Positions 857-4,419 of a stretch of 48,441 nt of DNA are shown here, in pieces. Origin of the DNA: Vulcanococcus limneticus LL (lineage in GTDB: Bacteria > Cyanobacteriota > Cyanobacteriia > PCC-6307 > Cyanobiaceae); the NCBI RefSeq assembly GCF_002252705.1, contig NZ_NQLA01000023.1:1-48441 (forward strand), given 5' to 3'. Numbering within the stretch: the stretch's first letter is position 1; each line of letters starts with the position of its first letter. The notes under the pieces were generated by a model. That model was given only the letters and a program-made list of their open reading frames with translations, had not been told where the DNA came from and made no database searches. Made by a program: the position numbers and the translations under genes.

Positions 857-1594
857 TCAGATGGCGCCGCTGAGCAGCATCGGCCCCCGGGGCGCGCTGC
901 CGTCCGGCACGGTTTCGAGGCTGACGCTGACGCTGCTGGCCTGGCTGGTGGGGGAGGCGGGGATGGGCATCGCCACGTGGCCGTTGCGGTCTGGCGCGAA
1001 GGGCACGCAGCCCACCGCCCGGCCGTTCACCTGGGCCCAGAGCCGGTAGGTCTGGCCAGGGGGCAGGGGTGGCAGACCATCGAGCACCAGCAGGTTGTGG
1101 CTGGGGTTGCCGGTGACGAGCACCTCGCCGCTGGCCCGGCCGCTGGACTCCAGGGCCCGCAGCGGCAGCCTCCGGTTCAGCACCGGCAGGCCGCCGGCGC
1201 TCGGCCCCGGCGGCAGCTGCTGCTGCAGCTGGGCCACCTGCTGGCGGGTCTGCTGCAGCTGCACCCCCAGCACCAGCAGGGCGGCCCCCATCAGGCCCGG
1301 CACCAGCCAGCCGGCGGCCGCCGCCCTCCGCGCCTCCCGCGGCCGGGGCCCAGCCGCATCGGAGCGGCTCAGGAGGCGCTGCCTCAGCCGCGGCGGTGGC
1401 TTCACCGTGGCCGGCAGGGCCAGGGGCAGCAGCTCCAGGGTGGTGCGGAACTCCTCCAGCCGCTGGCGCAGGGCCGGGTCCTGCCGCAGCAGGGCCGCCA
1501 GCTGTTCACGCTCCGCCGAGTCCAGATCGCCGAGGGCGTGGCCGGCGAGCAGGGCGTCGATCTGGTCCTGGGGGAGGGGGGCGTCGGCGGTCAT
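857..1594 (-). CDS. RskA-like membrane anti-sigma factor
   Basis: The 245-residue protein probably holds the adjacent ECF sigma factor at the membrane. Its cytoplasmic N terminus (1-95) is an Asp/Glu/Leu-rich helical region as in anti-sigma domains, but it lacks the HxxxCxxC zinc motif of ZAS proteins. One membrane segment follows at about 101-120, then a coiled stretch rich in Gln. The extracytoplasmic part ends with features of the anti-sigma-K C-terminal domain: GQTYRLWA, PDRNGH, and the terminal SAPRGPMLLSG phrase. Its ATG lies inside the sigma stop codon (ATGA, 1591-1594), which indicates translational coupling in one operon. Release of sigma would normally follow regulated proteolysis. 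The signal sensed is unknown. Confidence 0.85.
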   Translation of the reverse strand: MTADAPLPQDQIDALLAGHALGDLDSAEREQLAALLRQDPALRQRLEEFRTTLELLPLALPATVKPPPRLRQRLLSRSDAAGPRPREARRAAAAGWLVPGLMGAALLVLGVQLQQTRQQVAQLQQQLPPGPSAGGLPVLNRRLPLRALESSGRASGEVLVTGNPSHNLLVLDGLPPLPPGQTYRLWAQVNGRAVGCVPFAPDRNGHVAMPIPASPTSQASSVSVSLETVPDGSAPRGPMLLSGAI

Positions 1595-2190
1595 GGCTCG
1601 CTCCGGAAGTCGATCAGCAGCGCCCGCAGGCGAATCAGGCCCTGGCGGGAGCGGGTCTTCACCGTGCCGAGCGGCAGTTGCAGCCGCGCCCCGATCGCCG
1701 ACTGGCTCAGGCCCTCGTAGTAGGCCAGCTCCAGCACCTGGCGCTGGTTGGCGGGGATGGCGACGAGGGCGGAGCGCACCCGGGTGGCCAGGTCGTCCTG
1801 TTCGGCGCTGGTGTGGGGACTGGCCACGGCCGTCGGAAACAGCTGCGCCGACCAGCGTTGCAGCAGCTGCCAGCGGTTGCGGCGCTGGTTGATCCGGTTG
1901 ATCGCCATCGAGCGGGTCAGCAGCAGCAGGTAGGCCAGCACCGGCCCCCGCGAGGGCTCATAGCGGCCCTGCTGCCAGTAGCGCAAGAACACGTCGTGGC
2001 AGAGGTCCTCGGCTTCCTGGCGGTCGCGGCACAGCCGCAGGGCCAGGCGGTACACCGGGCCGCCGCAGGCGTCGTAGAGGGCGCCCAGGTCGTCGAAGGG
2101 CTGCTGGGCAGTGGCCGGGTCCCGCTCTGCGGGATCAGGCTCGGCCGGGCTCCAGGGCGGGGCATCGGGGTCGGAGGGGGTCAGGCCCAC
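1591..2190 (-). CDS. ECF-type RNA polymerase sigma factor (SigK/RpoE-like)
   Basis: A 199-residue group 4 sigma factor. Region 2 spans about 34-105 (VYRLALRLCRDRQEAEDLCHD, with the DLCHDVF core) and region 4 about 135-195 (IPANQRQVLELAYYEG, then a helix-turn-helix SQSAIGARLQLPLGTVKTR). There is no region 1 or 3, as expected of the ECF class. The best start is GTG at 2190, without a clear Shine-Dalgarno sequence, so a different start is possible. The gene overlaps the anti-sigma gene by four bases. It is divergent from the secreted DM13 gene, and a GGAACC dyad lies between them, suggesting autoregulation and control of that neighbour. Confidence 0.9.
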   Translation of the reverse strand: MGLTPSDPDAPPWSPAEPDPAERDPATAQQPFDDLGALYDACGGPVYRLALRLCRDRQEAEDLCHDVFLRYWQQGRYEPSRGPVLAYLLLLTRSMAINRINQRRNRWQLLQRWSAQLFPTAVASPHTSAEQDDLATRVRSALVAIPANQRQVLELAYYEGLSQSAIGARLQLPLGTVKTRSRQGLIRLRALLIDFRSEP

Positions 2191-2336
2191 GGAGTGCTGC
2201 GGCGTGGCGCGGTCATGGGAGGTACAGGTGAGGGCCCGGATCGGATTCGCCCCGCTGCTGGCGGGCGGCTTGGTCTGGCCGCCTGGACGGCCCCTGCGGA
2301 CGGGGTGGCAATCCGATCGCTTGGTCCGTGGGTACA

Positions 2337-2369
2337 GGAACCACGCGCCGCCCGATCCGCAGCGGTTCC
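2337..2369. promoter_or_regulatory. Inverted GGAACC pair between the ECF sigma and DM13 genes
   Basis: GGAACC occurs on the plus strand at 2337-2342 and on the minus strand at 2369-2364, so the two face each other across 21 bases. GGAAC is the usual -35 core of ECF sigma promoters. On the minus strand a CGTG lies 18 bases beyond the hexamer (2345-2342), a fair -10 for such a promoter reading into the sigma operon. The plus-strand copy has no comparable -10 at the usual spacing. Function is inferred. Confidence 0.4.
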
Positions 2370-2407
2370 CAGCTGGTGCGCGCTACCCCCCCACACGATC
2401 CTTCCCC

Positions 2408-2905
2408 ATGACCGTTGTTTCGAAATCCCTGATTTCCGGCCTCACCCTGGCGATCCTCGCGGCCTCTGCCGTTGGCGTTCATGCCCAGGACAAGATGGCG
2501 CCCGGCGGCGCGATGAAGCCCCCTGGCGGCGCAATGATGGCTCCGGCAGCTGTTAGCTCTCAAGGCACCTTCCGGAAGGCGGAAGCGCCTGTTCGCGGTG
2601 GGTTTGTGATCAAGAACGAGGGCGGCAAGCAGGTGCTTGTGCTGAGCAGTGATTTCAAAACCAAGGCAGAAGCTCCCGACCTGAAGGTGGCGTTCAGCAC
2701 CTCAAGCACCCCCCTGGCGGCCAGCAAGCCTCCTGCCTATCCCCTCAAGCCCGGCAGCACCACGGTGCTGGCTCCCCTGAAGTCGCCATCGGGTTCCCAG
2801 AGCTACGTGATCCCCGCTTCCTTGAATCTGGCCAAGCAGGGATCGCTGCTGATCTGGTGTCAGCAGTTCAACGCCACCATGGCCTGGGCACCGCTCAAGG
2901 GCTGA
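2408..2905 (+). CDS. Secreted DM13-domain protein with Met-rich N terminus
   Basis: This 165-residue protein starts with a signal peptide (1-26, cleavage predicted after VHA). A short linker with Met30, Met36, Met43 and Met44 among Gly, Pro and Ala follows, then a DM13 domain (about 52-163). Domain landmarks are GTFRKAEAPVRGGF, LVLSSDFKTKAEAPDLKV, SQSYVIP and the terminal LLIWCQQFNATMAWAPL. Cys151 is the only cysteine of the mature protein. DM13 has been proposed to be a redox-active domain and is often linked with cytochrome b561-like partners. The gene is divergent from the ECF sigma gene and converges with a molybdopterin oxidoreductase and cytochrome b gene pair. It is probably a target of that sigma factor (inference). 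Confidence 0.8.
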   Translation: MTVVSKSLISGLTLAILAASAVGVHAQDKMAPGGAMKPPGGAMMAPAAVSSQGTFRKAEAPVRGGFVIKNEGGKQVLVLSSDFKTKAEAPDLKVAFSTSSTPLAASKPPAYPLKPGSTTVLAPLKSPSGSQSYVIPASLNLAKQGSLLIWCQQFNATMAWAPLKG

Positions 2906-2915
2906 CGCGGTCCGG

Positions 2916-2940
2916 CGCGGGCCCCCGTCCCGGGCCCGCG
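2916..2940. terminator. GC-rich hairpin between convergent genes
   Basis: A perfect 9-bp stem (CGCGGGCCC at 2916-2924 pairing with 2932-2940) has a 7-base loop. It sits in the 60 bases between the stops of the DM13 gene and the converging oxidoreductase gene. It may act as a bidirectional terminator, although there is no T tract on either side. Confidence 0.45.
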
Positions 2941-2965
2941 TCGCGGCCGCCGCCGCATCGGGGCT

Positions 2966-3673
2966 TCAGAGCCCGGCGAACCACTCGTAGCCCTGGTCTT
3001 CCCAGGTGCCGCGGCGCTCGCCCAGGCTGGCCACCACCTGGAGGCCCGTCACCCATTTGCTGAGCTTGTAGCCGAGCTTGATGGGCGAGGCGAGCCGCAC
3101 GGGGGCCCCGTGCGCCGCCGGCAGTGGGGCACCGTTCAGGTGGGTTGCCAGCAGGGTCTGGGGGTGCAGGGCGGAGGCCCGATCCCAGCTCTCGAGATAG
3201 CCGTCGGCCGAGCGGATGTACACATAGCTGCCCAGGGGGGAGGGGCCCGCCAGGGTCAGCACGTCCGCCAGGCGCACCCCCGACCAGGCCACGATCGCCG
3301 ACCAGCCCTCCACGCACACGTGGCGGATCACGATCTCGTGCTGGGGCAGGGCGGCCAGGGCCGCCAGCTCGAGCTGGAGGGGCCGGCGCACCAGGCCCTC
3401 CACCGCCAGCCGGTAGCGGCCGGGATCGATCTCGGGGGTGCCGTTGATGCTGTTGACCAGCAGTGCAGCGGGATCCACCTGGTCGCGGCGGAATTCGGGC
3501 ACCGGCCCCCGGCCCTGCAGCAGGGCCTCGACCCTCTCGTTGAGGGGTTCGCTGGCCTGCCCCACGGCGGTGCTGAAGCCGTTGAGGGCACAGCCGCCCA
3601 GCACCAGCGAAGAGCCGCCACCCAGGCCGAGCCCCAGCAGCCGGCGGCGGGTCAGGCGGGAGGAGCACGTCAT
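2966..3673 (-). CDS. Tat-exported molybdopterin oxidoreductase (sulfite oxidase / MsrP fold)
   Basis: The 235-residue protein carries a twin-arginine signal (T8-R-R-R-L-L) running into a lipobox-like LGGC with Cys28. This implies an exported, possibly lipid-anchored enzyme. The sulfite-oxidase-fold core follows; RHVCVEGWS holds the presumed Mo-ligand Cys120, and later landmarks are GSYVYIRSADGY and HGAPVRLASPIKLGYK. In this family MsrP (YedY) repairs methionine sulfoxide in periplasmic proteins, and other members have unknown substrates. The protein is shorter than typical MsrP. The ATG at 3673 is used because the frame upstream has no signal-peptide character. A cytochrome b561-like gene lies 41 bases upstream on the same strand and would supply electrons. 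Confidence 0.85.
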   Translation of the reverse strand: MTCSSRLTRRRLLGLGLGGGSSLVLGGCALNGFSTAVGQASEPLNERVEALLQGRGPVPEFRRDQVDPAALLVNSINGTPEIDPGRYRLAVEGLVRRPLQLELAALAALPQHEIVIRHVCVEGWSAIVAWSGVRLADVLTLAGPSPLGSYVYIRSADGYLESWDRASALHPQTLLATHLNGAPLPAAHGAPVRLASPIKLGYKLSKWVTGLQVVASLGERRGTWEDQGYEWFAGL

Positions 3674-3714
3674 GGGCGGGTGGATGGGATGGGGAGGGGA
3701 ATGGGCGGCACGGT

Positions 3715-4356
3715 TCAGGCGACCATCGCCCGCAGCAGCCGCAGACCGCCGATCCGCCAGGCCAGCAGCACGTGGCCCACCAGCAGCAGGGCGATGGCGG
3801 GGATCGTGGCCAGATGGCAGATCCGCAGCGTCTGCCAACTGGTGCTGCCGAAGGTCTCCCCCACGGAGAACAGGGCGACCAACCACCAGAACTGGGCGGG
3901 CTTGTATAGCGCCAGGCCGCTGATCAGGCTGAAGCCCAGCAGCACCAGCATCAGGCTGTAGATCAGACGATGGGCCGAGAGGCGTCGCTTGGCGGGGTTC
4001 AAGCTGGCGCGCAGGGTGGTGAGGTCGCCGCCAACGGCCAGGCGCCGGCGCCGCTGCAGAAACAGCAGGGCAATCCACACGCCCAGATTCAGCGCATAGG
4101 GGCCCATGAAACCGAAGTGCCAGTCGCGCCCGCCAGCCAGCCAGCCGCCCAGGGTGAAGAGCTGCGGCACGGTGGCGCCGCCCCGACCGCCGAAGACGGG
4201 ATTGGCGTTGTAGATCTGCAGCCCGCTGGCGGCCATCACCAGCAGCACCAGCAGGTTGAAGCCGTGGAAGGCCCGCGTCCAGAGCGGTCCGAAACGGATC
4301 GGGGTCACGCTGGCCGTGGTGGCGGGGCTGGCCGTGGCGTCAGGGGCAGCTCGCAT
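3715..4356 (-). CDS. Cytochrome b561-like membrane protein, electron partner of the oxidoreductase
   Basis: A 213-residue integral membrane protein with four or five hydrophobic segments. Histidines lie where b-type hemes are held in the cytochrome b561/b6 family: TRAFHGFNLL, SAHRLIYSL, RICHLATI and LLVGHVLLAW. A loop with DWHFGFMGPYALNL separates the first segments. It most likely passes electrons from the quinone pool or another donor across the membrane to the Tat-exported molybdopterin enzyme encoded 41 bases downstream. The start is the ATG at 4356. This is not the MsrQ (YedZ) type of partner, which belongs to the ferric-reductase fold, so the pair differs from classical MsrPQ. Confidence 0.8.
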   Translation of the reverse strand: MRAAPDATASPATTASVTPIRFGPLWTRAFHGFNLLVLLVMAASGLQIYNANPVFGGRGGATVPQLFTLGGWLAGGRDWHFGFMGPYALNLGVWIALLFLQRRRRLAVGGDLTTLRASLNPAKRRLSAHRLIYSLMLVLLGFSLISGLALYKPAQFWWLVALFSVGETFGSTSWQTLRICHLATIPAIALLLVGHVLLAWRIGGLRLLRAMVA

Positions 4357-4419
4357 GCGGCCGGCAGGGGACGACGATTCAGGTACCGCTGGGTGGCCGA
4401 AATGGATTGGGCCACCGCC

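Follow-up and report, generated by a model that had tools for sequence, protein, structure and literature searches.

A putative SigK/RskA-like regulon for the repair of envelope methionine oxidation in picocyanobacteria

The 48,441-nucleotide (nt) stretch of Vulcanococcus limneticus LL analysed here, which we call the window, is a full contig (C143) of a cyanobacterial assembly of 3.55 Mb. At 857–4356 it holds five genes, for an extracytoplasmic function (ECF) sigma factor, an RskA-type anti-sigma factor, a secreted DM13 protein, a molybdenum oxidoreductase (MoOx) and a cytochrome b561-type membrane protein (b561). Do these neighbours obey one switch, and if so, which stress do they answer? 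Anti-sigma and sigma genes run leftward, the DM13 gene rightward and the MoOx and b561 genes leftward again, such that DM13 and MoOx converge; the anti-sigma ATG overlaps the sigma stop codon at 1591–1594. A preliminary description had named the same five genes, and Pfam confirmed all of them, although the anti-sigma gene (857–1594) lies outside the interval that it quoted. We assign a probability of about 0.62 to the reading that they belong to a SigK/RskA-like regulon that would scavenge and repair methionine oxidation in the envelope, built from families other than those of the Azospira and Brucella systems. Gene content, linkage and a shared promoter motif come directly from the comparison of genomes; the function assigned to them is predicted from sequence.

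Promoter motif, co-occurrence and linkage

The regions upstream of the sigma and DM13 genes have the motif CAATCCGATC-N11-CGGTA in common. With a matrix trained on 33 sites, the window and 40 loci (661,310 bases) gave 61 sites scoring 13 bits or higher, the 33 training sites included, against 2 in the reversed sequence. In the window's own genome, a loose form of the pattern matched 14 times and the reversed pattern twice. Matrix scores in this genome cover these 14 matches, and the three best of them are the promoters of the sigma, DM13 and b561–MoOx genes described here (Table 1). A common promoter code for the three is thus very probable in the window genome, and the five genes look like one regulatory unit. 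The fourth-best match (16.9 bits; G000:C24:18926-18950, loci L104 and L171) stands before a secreted Gly-rich frame that ends at the contig end. The −35 element of SigK is CCATCC; a GGAAC-type ECF −35 element, which occurs in some of the upstream regions, was rejected as its positions are not conserved.

The same arrangement recurs in relatives. We compiled 44 named loci of picocyanobacteria (Synechococcus, Cyanobium, Aphanothece and others) from fewer than 44 genomes, with patterns that catch close relatives only. The motif was found at DM13 in 40 of the 44 and at sigma in 35 of the 36 loci that contain it; a MoOx match (in a few cases partial) occurs in 20, DUF4079 in 18 and an exported methionine sulfoxide reductase, MsrA, in 8. 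L196 and L225 each unite all five genes in a single locus; L217, of Synechococcus sp. WH 5701, contains sigma, anti-sigma and DM13 and shows no b561–MoOx within 9 kb. Non-training sites also precede b561 in five other genomes (15.4–22.4 bits); four of these five copies lie on a contig other than that of DM13 or over 40 kb away from it. Some motif sites have no convincing gene behind them.

For co-occurrence we used 121 genomes of the same family, counting sigma at E 1e-20; some assemblies are shared with the named loci, so that the counts of the two sets are not additive. DM13 is present in 33 genomes, sigma and anti-sigma in 27 each, b561 in 18 and MoOx in 17. All 27 sigma genomes contain the anti-sigma gene and 25 contain DM13. 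Two of the 27, G075 and G101, have distant matches only (43–46% identity). All 17 MoOx genomes contain b561, and 16 contain both sigma and DM13, the exception being G044. Fisher tests gave p values between 4.7e-10 and 1.5e-27, which ignore relatedness, genome size and streamlining. Sigma lies within 4 kb of a DM13 gene in 20 of its 27 genomes, and MoOx within 10 kb of one in 8 of its 17; in G005 the anti-sigma gene adjoins DM13 and the sigma match is on a separate contig. The preliminary description had made conserved co-occurrence a test of its proposal, and in this sample the genes do co-occur and share the promoter motif.

Linkage could in principle reflect ancestry alone, the genes being neighbours without common regulation. 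The compared genomes are all cyanobacteria, many of them near relatives, and in 9 of the 17 MoOx genomes MoOx lies beyond 10 kb from any DM13 gene (at least 35 kb, or on another contig). We nevertheless give this explanation hardly any credence, because the motif also marks unlinked b561 copies (G023, G035, G069 and G102) and unlinked msrA copies (G005, G069, G083, G090 and G113), and recurs in a spacing-specific form in distant families.

Table 1. Genes and promoter motifs of the system, with positions in the window.
Feature	Positions	Strand	Evidence
Anti-sigma factor	857..1594	-	RskA_C, 45.4 bits, cut-off 29.4 (Pfam); one transmembrane segment, by eye
ECF sigma factor, SigK-like	1591..2190	-	Sigma70_r2, 50.6 bits, cut-off 24; Sigma70_r4, 48.3 bits, cut-off 24.1 (Pfam)
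Promoter motif of sigma gene, GAATCCGATC-N11-CTGTA	2223..2248	-	30.5 bits; non-training; 33 nt before GTG
Promoter motif of DM13 gene, CAATCCGATC-N11-GGGTA	2309..2334	+	28.8 bits; training site; 74 nt before ATG
Secreted DM13 protein with Met-rich linker	2408..2905	+	DM13 (PF10517), 59.8 bits, gathering score 25 (Pfam)
MoOx, YedY/MsrP-like	2966..3673	-	Oxidored_molyb, 118 bits, cut-off 24 (Pfam)
Cytochrome b561-type membrane partner	3715..4356	-	Ni_hydr_CYTB, 38.7 bits, cut-off 30.1 (Pfam)
Promoter motif of b561–MoOx operon, CAATCCATTT-N11-CGGTA	4384..4409	-	23.6 bits; non-training; 28 nt before ATG

Regulon members beyond the window

MsrA was searched in 24 genomes, which revealed three paralogues, and 30 matches were scored for the motif. 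The exported type with AGGCFWG(V/M/I)E(A/G) has a site of 13.4–34.4 bits at most 480 nt before its active-site codon in nine of nine cases. In contrast, the motif was absent from all 21 copies of the cytosolic type GCGCFWGAEK (best score 2.8 bits) and from all four of a second exported type, GGCFWCLEHD, the window genome's copy included. Since an exported MsrA without the motif exists, we dropped the claim that export as such implies sigma control. Non-training sites precede msrA of G048, G051, G084 and G118, and in G051 and G084 msrA, b561 and MoOx follow in tandem, on one strand, behind a single site. In G018, a broken msrA of the first exported type lies beside the anti-sigma gene (L077, 10452–10913) with a 12.2-bit site. 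A DipZ-like fusion of CcdA and redoxin lies near DM13 in 14 of the 44 named loci; its redoxin part matched the DipZ ectodomain (3e-45) and its membrane part CcdA (7e-10) among PDB sequences, and no motif was found directly upstream of it in these loci.

Across the phylum, 292 genomes were compared; 43 of them have DM13, 46 MoOx and 45 sigma (the latter two at E 1e-20). One of them, G301, has on one strand and within about 6 kb genes for sigma, RskA, an MXKDX-like repeat lipoprotein of 136 residues (TIGR02953, 40.0 bits against a cut-off of 41), a DM13 protein without Met-rich linker, redoxin, CcdA, b561 and MoOx. G247 and G305 combine sigma–RskA, redoxin–CcdA and b561–MoOx with lipoproteins of nine MKSPDA repeats or of MSKDK repeats, neither of which matched TIGR02953. 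A variant of the motif, ATCCA-N15-CGTA, was counted 15 times (14 distinct sites) across 20 distant loci totalling 240,131 bases, as compared with 0, 2, 2 and 0 times for spacings of 13, 14, 16 and 17 and with none in the backwards control. The variant was picked after viewing these regions, so that the spacing contrast and not the count is the evidence. Of the distinct sites, 13 of 14 precede sigma, DM13, Met-repeat, redoxin–CcdA or b561 genes; in L291 one site stands 301 nt ahead of b561 and another within a sigma frame that is too long, ahead of its probable start, and no convincing gene was found behind the L283 site opposite sigma.

Which further genes stand directly behind sites was surveyed in twenty stretches hand-picked from the upper ranking among the matches listed, with Pfam run on one representative per type. 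Among these matches are a secreted thioredoxin, a second DM13 protein, DUF4079, DUF2282-type peptides, a 59-residue secreted peptide, a VTT–pyridine-nucleotide oxidoreductase, an FNR-like protein, cellulose-synthase-like and other family-2 glycosyltransferases (one of them TIGR04283), ArsS and an ArsC-like phosphatase. Redox stress in the envelope is a fitting context for the thiol members. As to the others, the motif stands before the arsenosugar genes ArsS and TIGR04283 and the ArsC-like phosphatase in L178, L185, L190 and L189, and an ECF sigma factor may control arsenosugar synthesis. DUF2282 (bufferin-type) secreted peptide genes with motif were seen in L182 (by Pfam), L186 and L193 (by likeness), and cellulose-synthase-like glycosyltransferase genes with motif in three genomes (L181, by Pfam; L187 and L188).

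This list opens a second reading, in which the sigma factor would answer copper, arsenic or similar and methionine repair would be secondary: metal would be bound by Met-rich DM13 and DUF2282 peptides, with detoxification by ArsS, the arsenate-reductase-like protein and the TIGR04283 glycosyltransferase. Sites of 24.9 and 22.6 bits precede ArsS (family score 455 bits, cut-off 300), one of 35.3 bits TIGR04283 (260, cut-off 182), one of 24.0 bits the ArsC-like low-molecular-weight phosphatase (71.7, below its cut-off of 174.3), and sites of 28.6, 21.1 and 14.6 bits DUF2282-type genes; ArsS-like and VTT–pyr_redox genes directly follow the anti-sigma gene in some loci, for example L080 and L093. 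SigF of Caulobacter responds to chromium and cadmium; under chromium it governs YedY, DUF692, DUF2282 and DoxX genes, and no change of msrA was seen (PMC3511200). For each of the candidate genes above, however, sites were seen in one to three of the examined genomes only, and the most widely shared components are sigma, RskA and DM13, followed by b561–MoOx and exported MsrA. We therefore regard a metal or metalloid regulon as unlikely, though it is the most serious competitor of methionine repair.

The five proteins

The system is SigK/RskA-like even though the sigma factor misses the curated SigK cut-off (107 bits against 226); its best curated model, PRK12519, is also below cut-off (184 against 222). 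The best PDB match is SigK of M. tuberculosis (4nqw, E 1.6e-17). Sigma contains cysteines only at 42, 54 and 64 and none in its C-terminal half; as these three vary among 23 orthologues, they were rejected as sensors. Cys196 in the RskA_C part of the anti-sigma factor is kept in 23 of 23 sequences and is, from this conservation, a candidate sensor residue only.

The Met-rich linker that the preliminary description had noted in the DM13 protein is real: it has four methionines in 29 residues, and methionine makes up 65 of the 638 linker and tail residues in 22 orthologues, with 26 residues allotted to the signal peptide. In many DM13 proteins of picocyanobacteria, a Met-rich linker or tail contains MxKD-like motifs; 9 such motifs were observed against 0.5 expected from within-protein shuffling, in sequences that are related and hence not independent. 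The five window genes include no separate gene for an MXKDX Met-rich peptide, and there is no FAS1 (MPT83) protein beside sigma, where the neighbouring protein matches DM13 alone in Pfam.

By sequence, DM13 found only antibody-like noise among solved structures, and a single-sequence model was useless (mean predicted local distance difference test score, pLDDT, 45.4). A model built from 35 sequences reached a pLDDT of 72.5, with domain blocks at 82–94 except for residues 101–120. In a second-look alignment, 48 of its best 50 rows were Cu,Zn superoxide dismutases (SODs) and the other two B. subtilis SOD-like mutants; the best had Z 9.4 and a root mean square deviation of 3.0 over 102 aligned residues. 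Foldseek gave no match with E < 0.001, and its top rows by E-value (0.13 and up) were Kir potassium-channel chains. In this model the fold encoded at 2570–2896 resembles the Cu,Zn SOD barrel without its His ligands, which we take as a fold lead; a SOD metal site is not suggested, as the DM13 domain has no His.

Among solved structures, MoOx comes closest to E. coli YedY/MsrP (1xdq, E 1.9e-15; CVEGWS against CVEAWS), and its best NCBIfam model is MsrP, yet below its cut-off. Cys120 of the CVE-WS motif, which we take to be the Mo ligand, aligns with 1xdq and is conserved in 17 of 18 sequences (window and one fragment included). A twin-arginine stretch (Tat signal) and a lipobox signal were recognised by eye, and Cys28 at the lipobox position is kept in 17 of these 18. 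In b561, five His are conserved in 17 of 17 sequences. The earlier statement that every non-sigma part comes from a different family than in Azospira is hence not fully correct, as MoOx is nearest to YedY/MsrP in spite of the missed cut-off. Molybdenum cofactor synthesis genes (MoaC, MoeA, MoaE and others) lie beside DM13 in seven relatives (L080, L081, L084, L087, L088, L090 and L093), even where MoOx is elsewhere; in G069 a partial MoOx match (residues 188–224; L086, 11610–11720) lies near DM13, with the full copy elsewhere.

The Oxidored_molyb fold also includes sulfite oxidases, and rhizobia have sulfite-induced ECF sigma factors. MoOx could thus be a sulfite dehydrogenase, with b561 and the quinone pool as its electron acceptors, in a response to sulfite. 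Sulfite oxidases, however, matched MoOx more weakly than YedY/MsrP did in the PDB sequence search, and the CVE-WS motif, the co-regulated exported MsrA of relatives and the MXKDX-type peptide of a distant cluster all speak for methionine sulfoxide instead, which makes a sulfite response very unlikely.

Known counterparts and proposed mechanism

Azospira reportedly has a SigF/NrsF–MrpX–YedYZ system, in which the preliminary description saw a parallel. The parallel holds in its logic, and it does not extend to the sigma/anti-sigma pair, which is SigK/RskA-like and not of SigF/NrsF type. Like the Azospira system and BcrS/AbcS–BcrXQP of Brucella, the window system combines an ECF sigma and anti-sigma factor, a Met-rich secreted protein, a YedY-like enzyme with a membrane cytochrome and sites before sigma and payload, and a distant cyanobacterial cluster adds an MXKDX-type peptide. 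Unlike in both, the anti-sigma factor is RskA (RskA_C match) and not DUF1109 (NrsF), the cytochrome is b561 (Ni_hydr_CYTB) and not YedZ/MsrQ, the Met-rich segment sits on a DM13 protein, and relatives have DipZ-like and MsrA partners; by the tests made, the window system is a member of neither. For Brucella, a report describes HOCl-induced (hypochlorous acid) direct activation by BcrS of the Met-rich MXKDX peptide and MsrQP, with sites before bcrX and bcrS (PMC8315932).

The closest regulatory relative is the SigK–RskA–DipZ system. As in the SigK–RskA regulons of mycobacteria and others, a SigK-like sigma factor has an adjacent RskA anti-sigma factor, a secreted-protein gene with a sigma site adjoins them, and relatives have a DipZ-like CcdA–redoxin protein. 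Here, however, DM13 takes the place of the FAS1 protein, b561–MoOx is added, relatives have exported MsrA, and sigma falls below the SigK cut-off and lacks the paired SigK cysteines (133/183), a pair with a frequency of 94% in ECF18 and 56% in ECF19 (PMC7509140). According to the same source, the mpt83–sigK–rskA cassette extends to Gram-negatives and its signal is called unknown (PMC7509140); another source calls the SigK–RskA stimuli obscure (PMC9861118). The regulon includes mpb83–dipZ–mpb70 (PMC10540498), and in most bacteria DipZ corresponds to two proteins, CcdA and a TlpA-like one (PMC3078919). In H. influenzae, RpoE2 controls periplasmic MsrAB, likewise a periplasmic Msr under an ECF sigma factor, and a DMT-type transporter gene adjoins, comparable to the EamA (DMT-type) gene that separates sigma from DM13 in three of the relatives (L056, L084 and L092). 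It differs by its small cytoplasmic anti-sigma factor and fused MsrAB, and the available part of the paper names neither DM13 nor b561–MoOx (PMC7907618).

From the shared motif and its presence before exported MsrA in relatives, the five genes probably form a light- or oxidant-triggered methionine-repair system outside the cytoplasm. RskA would hold sigma at the membrane until an extracytoplasmic oxidant signal, perhaps via the RskA outer domain, releases it. The freed sigma factor, presumably by recognising the motif, would then transcribe its own gene, the DM13 gene and the b561–MoOx operon. The secreted Met-rich DM13 protein could be sacrificial or handle electrons, and b561 might pass quinol electrons, in this assumed direction, to the exported YedY/MsrP-like MoOx, whose putative substrate would be methionine sulfoxide. 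In relatives, exported MsrA would be added under the same sigma factor, and the DipZ-like protein of some DM13 gene clusters could supply it with thiols. The oxidant-scavenging or methionine-repair circuit of the preliminary description thereby gains good support from context, namely from co-occurrence and the motif, from exported MsrA in relatives and from the distant MXKDX-type lipoprotein, whereas catalytic function and inducing signal are what we infer.

Several observations weigh against methionine repair under this sigma factor. MoOx scores 78.6 bits against the curated MsrP cut-off of 207, the Met-rich segments are poor or absent in several DM13 orthologues, and the two MsrA matches of the window genome are the cytosolic and the motif-less exported types. 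No motif site leads to b561–MoOx in 9 of 17 genomes (the 17 include that of the window) and in 14 of 18 named loci. The pattern alone is unspecific: it gave 188 matches against 58 reversed in 30 genomes, and 17 against 5 in four same-genus genomes without sigma, although the one locus seen in each of these stays below 13 bits (best 10.7). All five genes are missing from four of four same-genus genomes. Within about 1.5 kb, the CGTA variant is absent at 27 of 30 distant DM13 loci and at 8 of 8 distant MoOx loci examined, so that most of these copies seem to be outside this sigma control. Cellulose-synthase-like, DUF2282 and arsenosugar genes belong to the regulon, the last without a neat fit. 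Light induces mpk83 and mpk70 and not dipZ in M. kansasii (PMC9861118), and an H. influenzae rpoE2 mutant did not have raised HOCl sensitivity (PMC7907618).

Should the methionine-repair reading hold, it offers a bounded, promoter-defined regulon for a picocyanobacterial ECF sigma factor and a testable function for DM13 proteins, and it proposes b561, in place of MsrQ, as another type of membrane partner that MsrP-like enzymes can use. A testable answer to the SigK–RskA signal question follows as well, together with a suggested job for related sigma switches. A wider idea, which we hold tentatively and with more doubt than belief, is that SigK/RskA-type regulons are fundamentally extracytoplasmic circuits for scavenging and repairing the oxidation of methionine and thiols, with chlorine oxidants or oxidants made by light as the trigger. 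Its cyanobacterial branch, spread over several genomes, would unite sigma with an exported MsrA, a thiol conduit resembling DipZ, either MXKDX-type peptides or Met-rich DM13, and a new MsrP-type enzyme driven by b561. Within the partial coverage of our literature search, we found no work that joins DM13, cyanobacteria and a sigma factor, nor any that joins MsrP, methionine sulfoxide and cytochrome b561.

Two further neighbours recur in relatives. A ChrR-type Cupin_7 gene adjoins sigma or anti-sigma in L075, L091 and L095 (Pfam on L091), and its product is a possible second sensor. A gene for an inward-rectifier potassium channel (IRK_C) occurs in the DM13 clusters L084, L090, L083 and L095 (Pfam on L084 and L095).

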